The position numbers and the translations under genes were made by a program. DNA of 38,591 nt from SAR116 cluster bacterium AG-325-F22 (lineage in GTDB: Bacteria; Pseudomonadota; Alphaproteobacteria; Puniceispirillales; Marisalimonadaceae): NCBI GenBank assembly GCA_003282885.1, contig QBYJ01000012.1:1-38591 (forward strand), in the 5' to 3' direction. Shown here piece by piece: positions 18,318 to 21,321 of this stretch; within the stretch, counting starts at the first letter, position 1; every line of letters starts with the position of its first letter. The notes below the pieces were generated by a model, which was given only the letters and a program-made list of their open reading frames with translations, did not search any database and was not told the DNA's origin.

Positions 18318-18680
18318 ATGATGAGTAAATATTTAGGACTACTAATTTGCTTGTTTTTAGTAATGGGTGCATTATTCCAAATTGGTATTTTCTTGTATGT
18401 AGATATTAATAGTATTCTAATTGTTTTTGGTGGAGCATTTGGCTACTCTCTTATTCAGAATAAAAAAGAACATTATATAACCAATTTTGGAAAAGGAGCC
18501 ATTTTTTTTGGATGGTTGGGAATGTTAATTGGTTTAATTGCCTTGACTGGAGGAAAGTATGACAATTGGGGTGACATAGAAAAAATGGGTGCTGCACTTA
18601 AAGTTTTAATGCTTCCAGTTTTTTATGGTTATATGATAAAACTCATAACAATGCCATTTAATAATCAAAATAAGACATAG
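18318..18680 (+). CDS. Four-helix MotA-like mini membrane protein
   Basis: This 120-residue protein is almost entirely hydrophobic, with four likely spans at about 5-27, 31-47, 60-78 and 92-113. Residues 28-46 (VDINSILIVFGGAFGYSLI) look like the MotA/PomA segment with the pattern D-I-x-S-x-x-I-V-x-G-G. The last span, with LPVFYGYMIKLITMP, resembles MotA helix 4 and has a proline at residue 100. The cytoplasmic domain of about 100 residues that MotA has between helices 2 and 3 is absent; only about a dozen residues link them. No motB or flagellar gene is near. Either ATG 18318 or ATG 18321 may be used. Function unknown. Confidence 0.7.
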   Translation: MMSKYLGLLICLFLVMGALFQIGIFLYVDINSILIVFGGAFGYSLIQNKKEHYITNFGKGAIFFGWLGMLIGLIALTGGKYDNWGDIEKMGAALKVLMLPVFYGYMIKLITMPFNNQNKT

Positions 18681-18691
18681 CTGTGTAGATA

Positions 18692-19126
18692 ATGAATAGA
18701 ATATTTTCATTAATACTATTTATAGTAATTTCTAACAAGTCATTTGCATCTCTAGAAGGGGAGACATTAATTTGTGATAAAGATAAGAGAGGTTATAATT
18801 TCATATCTAGTGATCATGTTAAAATTTTAGGTATTAATTTAAATGAACTTCATATTTTTTCTGTAAATCATTCATACGAACTTACTGAAAATGTAATTTT
18901 TATTAATCAAACACTTAATGAAATTGATAAAGAAAAAACTCTAACACTTAGACCTATTGGTTGGATATTTAGAAGAACCTTAGACTATATATCGTTAGAC
19001 TATGTAAATGGTGATTGGACCAGAAGATTTTTATGGACATGTGAAATTACATCATCAAAACAATTAAAAATAAGAATAAAAAATACACTTAATAAATTAA
19101 TAAAAGCTAGTGACGAAAAACTTTGA
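18692..19126 (+). CDS. Predicted secreted hypothetical protein
   Basis: I do not recognise this 144-residue protein. Residues 1-19 form a clear signal peptide (short basic start, hydrophobic core LILFIVI, then KSFA before SLEG), so it is likely periplasmic after cleavage near residue 19. Two cysteines remain in the mature part (in LICDKD and LWTCEI) and may form a disulfide. Aromatic and basic segments such as RPIGWIFRRTLDYISLDYV suggest a beta-rich fold. It lies 11 bases after the MotA-like gene on the same strand and may be co-transcribed with it. Confidence 0.65.
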   Translation: MNRIFSLILFIVISNKSFASLEGETLICDKDKRGYNFISSDHVKILGINLNELHIFSVNHSYELTENVIFINQTLNEIDKEKTLTLRPIGWIFRRTLDYISLDYVNGDWTRRFLWTCEITSSKQLKIRIKNTLNKLIKASDEKL

Positions 19127-19312
19127 TACATATCCTAAACTTCTAAATTATACTAGAACTGCTATAAACGTATCTCATAAAGTTTTGTCTCTGATTAAAC
19201 TAACTTTGTTGTATTACTTGATGTATAAACTAAAAGGAGAATACTTTAAGTATAATATCTCGTTAGATTAGTATGTTTTTACTTAATATTTAAAATATCT
19301 ATAGGAGTAACA

Positions 19313-19681
19313 ATGCCATTAATTAGAATAGATTTACCTGAAGGAGTATCTACAGATATTAAAAAACAAATACACAGCAAAGTAAGAAAAGTTGTATTAA
19401 AAACATTAGCTCCCAAAGAAGTTAAATATGATTATGTTTCTATTAGAGAGGCTTTTGGCTTTATAGGTGATGGTCTTCCAGTTATTGACGTGGATTTGAG
19501 ACCCGGGAGAGATGCGAGCAGAAAAAAAGCTCTTGTTGACGGTATATCTGAAGTTCTCAAGGAAACACTAAATATTACTAAAGAAGATGTATATTGTCTT
19601 TTTAGAGAAACACCGGCACATAATCATTACACCGGAGGTGAACCTTTGCCAGAATGGGTGGCATCTGATGAATGTAAATAA
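19313..19681 (+). CDS. Tautomerase-superfamily protein
   Basis: The 122-residue protein begins Met-Pro, as in the 4-oxalocrotonate tautomerase superfamily, where Pro1 becomes the catalytic base after Met removal. The pattern MPLIRIDLPEG, a central helix, the VIDVDLRPGRDASRKKALV segment (arginine-rich, a likely substrate-carboxylate site) and a second beta-alpha unit fit the fold. The length is about twice that of short 4-OT monomers, so it may hold two beta-alpha-beta units. Substrate is unknown. A GGAG ribosome-binding sequence stands just before ATG 19313. Upstream, 186 bases (19127-19312) hold no gene I can support. Confidence 0.8.
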   Translation: MPLIRIDLPEGVSTDIKKQIHSKVRKVVLKTLAPKEVKYDYVSIREAFGFIGDGLPVIDVDLRPGRDASRKKALVDGISEVLKETLNITKEDVYCLFRETPAHNHYTGGEPLPEWVASDECK

Positions 19682-19733
19682 TGAAAGTAATAATCTATTA
19701 TTAAAATTGATTAATACATGTTAAGTACTAATT

Positions 19734-19865
19734 ATGAGAAAAGAACTAAAAATATTTTTATGTGTTGTAACATTTTTTATTTTGTTAAAGGGTTACATTT
19801 TCTTTTTTATTAGCCCTTCTATACTTACCAATCCAAATATGGGGTACCAATTTATAGTTAAATAA
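19734..19865 (+). CDS. Candidate 43-residue single-span membrane protein
   Basis: A short ORF encodes MRKELKIFLCVVTFFILLKG followed by another hydrophobic and aromatic stretch and a polar end. A single transmembrane span at about residues 7-27 with a positively charged N-terminus is predicted. There is no good Shine-Dalgarno before ATG 19734, so it could be a chance ORF in an AT-rich gap. If it is not real, the interval 19682-20026 contains nothing else I can identify. Confidence 0.4.
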   Translation: MRKELKIFLCVVTFFILLKGYIFFFISPSILTNPNMGYQFIVK

Positions 19866-20026
19866 ATAACATGATATATGCACTTATTGATGATTAAAAT
19901 CTTAAAGTATAATTATACACTAATGTTACGATTTATTTTTTAATAAAAATTAAATTAACATTTAAGTCATACCATATTTCAAATTTTAAAAATTGAAAAT
20001 ATTTATTGGTTGTCCTAAAGTTACTT

Positions 20027-20230
20027 ATGAACAGAAAACTGACAGAAAAAAAATTTACTAATTGGTGGAATGACGGAGAGAATAAATTTTCAAAGTTTAT
20101 ATATATATTTGTCAGTTGGTGGGATAATGGTAAAAACAAGTTTTTAAAAGCAATTTATTTTTCTATTTTTTTACATTTATTATTTGGCGCTTTTTGGTTG
20201 CTTAGTCTTGGCATTGGGTACATATTTTAA
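20027..20230 (+). CDS. Small membrane protein with internal WW-type duplication
   Basis: The 67-residue protein from ATG 20027 has two copies of a 15-residue unit with pattern [NS]WW[ND][ND]GxNKFxKxIY, at residues 12-26 and 30-44 (period 18 residues). A hydrophobic C-terminal span at about 42-66 follows. The N-terminal half is rich in Trp, Lys and Asp. I know no family for it. An in-frame TTG at 20006 would add seven residues; ATG is preferred, though neither has a strong ribosome-binding site. The conserved duplication argues that it is a true gene. Confidence 0.6.
   Translation: MNRKLTEKKFTNWWNDGENKFSKFIYIFVSWWDNGKNKFLKAIYFSIFLHLLFGAFWLLSLGIGYIF
20060..20158 (+). repeat. Two tandem 15-codon repeat units inside the WW protein gene
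   Basis: Unit one covers 20060-20104 and unit two 20114-20158, 54 bases apart. Both keep the TGGTGG tryptophan pair and the Gly-x-Asn-Lys-Phe codons, while the DNA has diverged elsewhere. That points to an old duplication held by selection on the protein rather than recent slippage. Confidence 0.5.
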
Positions 20231-20258
20231 TAACAATATTTTTTTAAAAGGACACAAA

Positions 20259-20369
20259 TTGAAAAAAAATGGAAAACCACACCCCTATATTTTTAAATGG
20301 TATGCTAGTGCATATATTATTTTAGCAATTATTGTAACCTATTTGGAATATGATAATTGGTTTAGTTGA
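20259..20369 (+). CDS. Candidate 36-residue small membrane protein (TTG start)
   Basis: From TTG 20259 the frame encodes a basic N-terminus (MKKNGKPHPYIFKWYAS) and a hydrophobic span YIILAIIVTYLEY, ending DNWFS. An AAGG at 20248-20251, 7 bases before the TTG, supports this start. The same frame is open upstream to a TTG at 20184, but that would overlap the WW protein by 47 bases and has no ribosome-binding site. It follows the WW protein by 28 bases and may share its transcript. Function unknown. Confidence 0.5.
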   Translation: MKKNGKPHPYIFKWYASAYIILAIIVTYLEYDNWFS

Positions 20370-20470
20370 AAATAATAATTATTACATTTCTTATTTGCCA
20401 AGCTATGCACAAATCAATAAATATTTATCTAAACTAATATTCTTAAAAGAATTTATATATAATGAGTTAA

Positions 20471-20501
20471 ATAAAAATTCTAAATTTTTTAAGTTAGAAT
20501 T
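20471..20501 (-). terminator. Candidate terminator after the 70-residue minus-strand gene
   Basis: On the minus strand, directly at the stop codon of the gene ending at 20500, an eight-base-pair stem AATTCTAA/TTAGAATT (20494-20501 with 20476-20483) encloses a ten-base loop and is followed by a T-rich tract. A further ATTCTAA at 20508-20514 gives an alternative stem. The stem is AT-rich, so strength is doubtful, but position fits. Confidence 0.35.
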
Positions 20502-20712
20502 ATACAGATTCTAATTTAACTTTAATGCAATTCTTGCTTATAACTGCTGGATAATTTATGACGTGTAATAACTCATTTTCCATTTCATTTATTCTTTTAT
20601 TACATTTAGCTTCTGTTGAATAGTAGCCTTTAGTATCCTCAATCCCAAAACATTCTTTTTCGTGGTGGATTAAGTTCATTGGCGAACATACTAACATAAT
20701 TGCAAAAAACAT
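20500..20712 (-). CDS. Small cysteine-containing exported protein, hypothetical
   Basis: The 70-residue product begins with a short hydrophobic stretch (MFFAIMLVCSPMNLIHH), likely a signal sequence or lipoprotein-like leader with Cys9. It continues with a polar part containing ECFGIEDTKGYYSTEAKCNK and NCIK, giving cysteines at 21, 37 and 62. Spaced cysteines in an exported protein suggest disulfides or metal binding. A GGAG sequence 8 bases upstream supports ATG 20712. I cannot assign a family. It is separated by 282 bases from the next minus-strand gene. Confidence 0.6.
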   Translation of the reverse strand: MFFAIMLVCSPMNLIHHEKECFGIEDTKGYYSTEAKCNKRINEMENELLHVINYPAVISKNCIKVKLESV

Positions 20713-20994
20713 ATTTATACTCCATGATCTTCCCCCATGGTTGGAATTATATTGAACAAAATTTGACGTATCTCAAAGTTTTTTTCAATACAAATTGGGT
20801 TTATGTAATTTATTTATGCAGAAACTATCGTTGTTATTAAAAATTAATCAATTTATATGAATTTTCTATAATTAAACAATATGTATCAGCTTAAAAATCT
20901 GACATATATTTATCAATTAAATATCTTTAACAATAATAATTATTATAAAAGGTTATCAAATAAATTTAAGTATTCGTATTACACAATATATTAA
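20713..20994. other. Intergenic stretch with no supported gene
   Basis: This very AT-rich interval separates two minus-strand genes. A TATAAT on the minus strand near 20750, with TTGAGA 19 bases further upstream, could be a poor promoter for the downstream small gene. A 37-codon plus-strand ORF at 20881-20994 has low-complexity Asn/Tyr/Lys content and is not convincing. I see no RNA gene or repeat. Confidence 0.4.
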
Positions 20995-21225
20995 TTAGCC
21001 TTTAGACTCTTTTTTAATTTTTTCTTCAAGATGACCTATTATAATTCTTCTCATATATTCAGCTCTTGCCAAGTCTGTAAAGGAGTACTCACGAATATCA
21101 TCTTGGCTAACTCTGATAGAAAAATTATAAAAAGCTCCAGTTTTTTTTATGCTAGACGCGCTACCTGCAGCAATTTTGCTTGTATTAACTAAGGTTCCAA
21201 ATTTTGTTTCAATTATATTTGTCAT
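20995..21225 (-). CDS. Small hypothetical protein, 76 residues
   Basis: The product is soluble, with a beta-rich N-terminal half (TKFGTLVNTSKIAAGS, then TGAFYNFSIRVSQDDIREY) and a charged C-terminal helix (LARAEYMRRIIIGHLEEKIK). A GGGGTG sequence stands shortly before ATG 21225. I recognise no family or motif. A dyad GTATGA-N2-TCATAC lies at 21262-21275, upstream of it and downstream of the next minus-strand gene, and might be an operator or a weak terminator. Confidence 0.6.
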   Translation of the reverse strand: MTNIIETKFGTLVNTSKIAAGSASSIKKTGAFYNFSIRVSQDDIREYSFTDLARAEYMRRIIIGHLEEKIKKESKG

Positions 21226-21321
21226 CTTTACACCCCCCCAAAGTATAAATAATTAAAACTAGTATGAACTCATACCTTTGAAAAAGTCAAAAAAATAATT
21301 TTAATTGTTATATTTTAAAGG

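Follow-up and report, generated by a model that had tools for sequence, protein, structure and literature searches.

A WW-repeat single-span small protein of SAR116 bacteria, a candidate accessory membrane component encoded with two other tiny membrane proteins

The 38,591-nucleotide stretch of the SAR116 cluster bacterium AG-325-F22 that we analysed (the window; source genome assembled into 88 contigs, 1.6 Mb in all) contains a gene, B, that encodes a 67-residue protein with two tandem WW-containing units ahead of one membrane span, and that is conserved under purifying selection in related genomes beside two other tiny membrane protein genes, A and C (Table 1). We propose, with a probability of about 0.4, that B is a bitopic inner-membrane interface protein that plays an accessory or regulatory role in a three-protein module with C and usually A. 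The membrane-interface half of this proposal comes from prediction, and the half that has B working with C and A comes from gene company.

Table 1. Features in and around gene B, in window coordinates
Feature	Position	Strand	Evidence
A (KGYIFF family): single-span protein of 43 aa encoded upstream of B, multi-copy in the genus	19734..19865	+	
B: 67-aa WW-repeat single-span membrane protein	20027..20230	+	ORF (ATG at 20027, TAA ending at 20230), homologues, dN/dS
B unit 1, residues 10-27	20054..20107	+	internal repeat score
B unit 2, residues 28-45, continuing into the predicted membrane helix	20108..20161	+	repeat score and model helix 38-66
B predicted long helix with membrane span, residues 38-66	20138..20224	+	AlphaFold2 model and hydropathy peak 45-63
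C: single-span protein of 36 aa encoded downstream of B, with a TTG start	20259..20369	+	homologues, start codon, dN/dS, upstream AAAAGGA
70-aa conserved neighbour, also near B in G026	20500..20712	-	72 % identical copy at L151, 0.2 kb from B
76-aa conserved neighbour, also beside the one-unit B of genus g12	20995..21225	-	85 and 82 % identical copies at L080 and L081

The two units of B stand back to back, each 18 residues long (FTNWWNDGENKFSKFIYI and FVSWWDNGKNKFLKAIYF), with WW pairs at residues 13 and 31, and they follow the pattern F-x-x-W-W-x-[DN]-G-x-N-K-F-x-K-x-I-Y. The internal repeat reached a BLOSUM62 score of 67, a value attained by none of 5000 shuffles (best 48, mean 16), and a single span follows it, with a 19-residue hydropathy peak of 2.02 at residue 45. 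These two results bear out the original prediction that two WW copies precede one membrane span. The 18-residue spacing of the WW pairs given in that prediction also holds, but its 15-residue unit must be extended to 18 residues, and its motif, WW-[ND]-G-x-N-K-F, is right overall except that two residues, and not one, separate WW from G (WW-x-[DN]-G-x-N-K-F). Units 1 and 2 are identical at 10 of 18 residues and at 34 of 54 bases; Trp aside, five of the eight identical residues (G, N, K, K and I) use different codons and three use the same one, so that it was fair to say that the codons had diverged while the protein pattern was kept. Among 15 two-unit members from the genus, unit 1 has invariant WW, D, G, N and K, while unit 2 has invariant WW, G, K and K.

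The selection that had been implied from this codon divergence proved to be purifying, at a dN/dS of ~0.17-0.19 between homologues (pooled values of 0.168 for the nine sequences of the window clade and of 0.187 for the 17 of a sister clade), with variable sites at 32, 19 and 42 of 52 codons for the first, second and third codon positions, respectively. Homologous DNA was free of frameshifts in all 28 loci that were read, where the frame of B ran uninterrupted from its first WW pair as far as the stop codon, and the other five frames across B were closed in 28/28. Two loci, L026 and L090, were left out of both clade groups in the dN/dS and locus comparisons, and the alignments took in a part of the homologues (15 of the 26 B proteins in one, 13, 11 and 17 sequences in others, and the window plus eight in another). 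The consulted part of a study of the low-GC SAR116 subclade gives a median dN/dS of 0.09, measured differently from our values (PMC8547437), and by this yardstick the constraint on B may be somewhat weaker than that on a typical gene of the subclade.

Counting matches as convincing at E below 1e-6, and thereby excluding weaker rows (E 0.009 to 0.63), we found B in 36 of the 136 order genomes, all within one low-GC SAR116 family: 28/40 in the window's genus, 1/3 in genus g11, 5/13 in g13 and 2/2 in g12. Since genomes of the window's genus with and without B have similar mean completeness (~74 % and ~77 %, respectively) and since even genomes that are 99 and 100 % complete can lack B, some of the absences are real. 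In a draw of 385 genomes of the class, only the window's own genome (G000) matched, together with three weak matches (E 0.005-0.008) that we take as chance. The weak rows in G010 and G001 were rejected as B because they proved to lie, in a different frame, over a long conserved ORF, which we take for a TRAP-type transporter gene.

Counting the repeat units of the relatives, as had been suggested, gave two in most B proteins and one in genus g12, whose 45-residue form consists of one WW unit and a span. The sequence similarity of these one-unit proteins to B is weak (E 3e-7 and 3e-8). Close to their genes, however, on the opposite strand, lies a homologue of the window's 76-residue neighbour with 82-85 % identity, and this conserved company supports common descent of the one-unit and two-unit forms. 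Across two-unit proteins, unit 1 is mostly nearer to unit 1 of other taxa than to unit 2 of the same protein, and unit 2 behaves likewise (identities out of 15 positions of 7-12 between first units, 7-13 between second units and 7-9 within proteins). Because same-numbered units resemble each other across taxa more than the two units do within a protein, the doubling probably took place before the genera diverged.

Neither these one-unit relatives nor the two tiny membrane genes that flank B had been noticed in the original prediction. With a cut-off of E below 1e-10, C was present in 35 of the 136 order genomes, namely in the same 28 of 40 genomes of the window's genus and in seven others, one of which belongs to another family; among the 385 class genomes, it matched only G000, plus three weak hits (E 0.003-0.010) taken as chance. 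Its start codon is TTG in 26 of 28 loci, mostly preceded by an AGG-type site, and its dN/dS was 0.016 and 0.156. In the window's genus, B and C are thus both present in 28 genomes and both absent from 12, and the similar mean completeness of the two sets shows that poor assembly does not explain the joint absences. Still, the two genes are adjacent, so that their joint presence is a single event and no independent proof of a link. In genus g13, B and C lie apart, and in the genomes of g12 neither A nor C was found. A was intact in 19 of the 25 loci with enough upstream sequence and broken in the other six, where B and C were intact, showing that A cannot be essential to B.

The order A-B-C is kept though the surroundings differ, the trio lying behind a tautomerase gene in the window clade and behind xseA in many sister-clade genomes, and other neighbours from the window persist beside B in G026 and g12. 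In all 11 sister-clade loci with an intact A, a single base separates the stop of A from the ATG of B, a spacing that resembles the one seen in translational coupling; in the window clade, the two genes stand 77-161 bases apart. The only likeness of A, B and C to each other is that they are tiny, have a single span and carry basic residues at their start. A promoter scan was uninformative (15 sites, with 15.5 expected by chance), and its one terminator-like site lies on the opposite strand (19635-19613).

Several other genes accompany the trio. The product of the 70-residue neighbour contains Cys and has no family match; the copies close to B in the window clade and in G026 show 72-99 % conservation. 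Further upstream, 18318-18680 (+) encodes a 120-residue membrane protein that matches PHROG 29102 (7.7e-06) over nearly its full length, and this gene and 18692-19126 are near the trio in the sister-clade loci L018 and L023 too.

The AlphaFold2 model of B, made from nine near-identical sequences (87-99 % identity), predicts helices at residues 3-15, 20-33 and 38-66 with turns between them (mean pLDDT 78.1), while at a pTM of 0.42 the mutual placement of the helices is untrustworthy. In this model, WW[ND] closes each helix and a [DN]G turn comes next, so that the 18-residue period would correspond to one helix plus one turn; this turn role of DG had also been missed before. The helices are mostly hydrophobic on one face, and the helical moment is 0.53-0.54 in the stretches of 18 residues that begin at residues 7 and 9, both of which cross a predicted turn. 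Interfacial amphipathic helices that would lie on the membrane, as originally suggested, fit the modelled helices and this moment, and the original interpretation is thus supported in part. With 67 residues, one hydropathy peak and one long helix, B has the single predicted span in fewer than 100 residues that is expected of a small bitopic accessory or regulatory membrane protein.

In our proposal, the positively charged N-terminus would most likely be cytoplasmic, and the two helix-turn units would run along the membrane on its cytoplasmic side or be pressed against it. Placed where the helices end, the WW pairs would act as interface anchors, [DN]-G-x-N would form a tight turn, and the second unit would pass directly into the single span. 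B, C and usually A would then form a small membrane module that serves a larger membrane protein as an accessory or regulatory component; no partner protein of B was found in our analysis. The WW units might instead form a surface on which a soluble cytoplasmic partner or nucleic acid docks, held in place by a span that is a mere anchor. We regard this as possible, if doubtful: the differentiation of units 1 and 2 across taxa is what distinct binding surfaces would show and the invariant Asp, Asn and Lys residues would suit such a role, but no known binding motif was matched and the hydrophobic face of the helices speaks against it.

Searches of family libraries were consistent with the original remark that no family could be recognised. 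B had no match in Pfam at E up to 1 or in NCBIfam and PADLOC at 0.1, 17 B members gave only six weak Pfam matches of one member each (best 0.022), and Foldseek with the B model returned no PDB match at E up to 10, with a further fold comparison giving two poor viral matches only (E 8 and 9.4). Among the sequences of solved structures, the best E values were 0.62 for B and 0.92 for C, and a literature search gave no paper on protein B among the matches listed. In PHROGs, no convincing match covered most of the protein: the best (E 0.00075) was to phrog_3750, which has 347 positions, with 8 of the 17 members, and 10 of the 17 matched phrog_2946 (best 0.03), while no viral locus was confirmed in the viral contigs. 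Viral contigs yielded 29 matching stretches with B, 13 with the B alignment and 54 with C as query, none of them confirmed; a plasmid search for B gave none, and tblastn against phages gave nine mycobacteriophage tape-measure records, all at E 0.1 or worse. A viral, phage or plasmid origin of B was rejected on these grounds. Measured against the libraries searched, B represents a new family, though the kind of protein is a familiar one.

These searches also bear on whether A, B and C might be a set of membrane-active peptides, such as a small toxin, a holin-like protein or a leaderless bacteriocin, whose Trp/Lys-rich helices, encoded by adjacent tiny genes, would disturb membranes. Size, charge, paired Trp and one hydrophobic helix would all suit such peptides, as would the tandem tiny genes and their patchy presence in 28 of 40 genus genomes. 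We nevertheless hold this to be unlikely, considering that no antitoxin, immunity, export or lysis gene was recognised in the ORF lists as a recurring neighbour across loci, that Pfam, PADLOC and NCBIfam gave no match for B, that none was confirmed in viral contigs and none found in plasmids, that B is intact over an old divergence and that an Rfam scan of 19300-21300 showed no known element, a scan that a novel antisense RNA would escape.

A second cassette of similar layout is present in many SAR116 genomes (L120, L123, L127, L128, L135, L136, L141-L147 and L150). It consists, at nearly fixed spacing, of B-prime (48 aa, MIQNYINWEKKQIDWWKEKLG..., with WW before one span), A-prime (37 aa, of the A type) and often C-prime (39 aa, single span, TTG start), the last being an ORF that lies 2-3 bases further on at several sites. 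When 35 sites with A-type genes outside the trio were tallied (weak rows excluded), a B-prime gene lay within 500 bases at 15 of them; conversely, an A-type gene was present at 15 of the 20 sites with a strong B-prime match. The cassette differs from the trio in its gene order (B-prime, A-prime, C-prime) and in that B-prime has no tandem repeat. Homology of B and B-prime was not found (hhalign probability 0.4 % over 7 columns, a weak test given the shallow B-prime alignment), nor was that of C and C-prime by profile comparison; what these proteins share is their layout alone. A tentative and rather improbable generalisation is that low-GC SAR116 bacteria have interchangeable membrane modules of three proteins, each combining a WW single-span protein, a shared A-type subunit and a TTG-started tiny third subunit, with B as the WW part of one of them and A as a common part that would pair with non-homologous WW proteins.

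Related observations concern other tiny genes. A 73-residue Cys-rich (zinc-ribbon-like) ORF precedes the second cassette in several loci, and the window's own genome has a second A-type gene (G000:C18:21340-21447, L118) that adjoins neither B nor C. A wide SAR116 family of ~46-residue single-span proteins (MINKFKAWHIDLIEKVQKITGLSNYQIIWISFAEGLIIGL...; L161, L162 and L165-L170, for example 1406-1561 in L168) is weakly related to B-prime and has no PHROG or NCBIfam match. In window-clade genomes, B-prime remnants lie behind a long conserved ORF (L154 and L158, in G000:C22 and G016:C10), and those of G016, G031 and G067 contain in-frame stops.

Such remnants, the relocation of the trio between clades and the A-type genes at 35 other sites are what would be expected if the trio were a selfish or freely dispersing cassette without a function for the cell. 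Against this stand the kept A-B-C order and purifying selection, ORF lists in which no mobility gene was recognised beside the trio, and host genomes that the consulted part of PMC8547437 describes as streamlined, making this explanation quite improbable. That B is a spurious ORF in AT-rich DNA, as its shortness and lack of an annotated family might have suggested, is refuted by its conservation (homologues in 36/136 genomes, a repeat beyond 5000 shuffles, purifying selection and closed other frames).

The consulted part of the same source presents the low-GC SAR116 subclade as abundant, without cultures and streamlined, with spacers of ~18 bases (PMC8547437). That three tiny membrane genes are kept under purifying selection in such genomes suggests a use that is worth testing. 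B also provides a concrete repeat-based family of small proteins, absent from the libraries searched, in which the number of units varies naturally between one and two; we find it moderately interesting for its module and for this variation.

Two resemblances to known proteins were set aside. Mycobacteriophage tape measure proteins, which are tail proteins far longer than B, share 44-50 % identity with its residues 9-42 (34 residues) at E 0.1-0.5, which we take as chance or convergence. The T4 lysozyme segment around RWYNQTPNRAKR, a helix-turn-helix, gave a weak profile match to the WW turn of B (best E 0.6); lysozyme is a soluble enzyme and no relation is claimed. The accessory membrane protein that we propose has closer counterparts among small bitopic accessory or regulatory proteins of bacteria, which include MgrB, DltX, KdpF and CydX. 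B differs from such proteins in that no Pfam family matches it at E up to 1, and to our knowledge none of these four carries tandem WW helix-turn units. Like B, these proteins are very short, have one span and are conserved within a lineage, and some of them are encoded in short gene groups.
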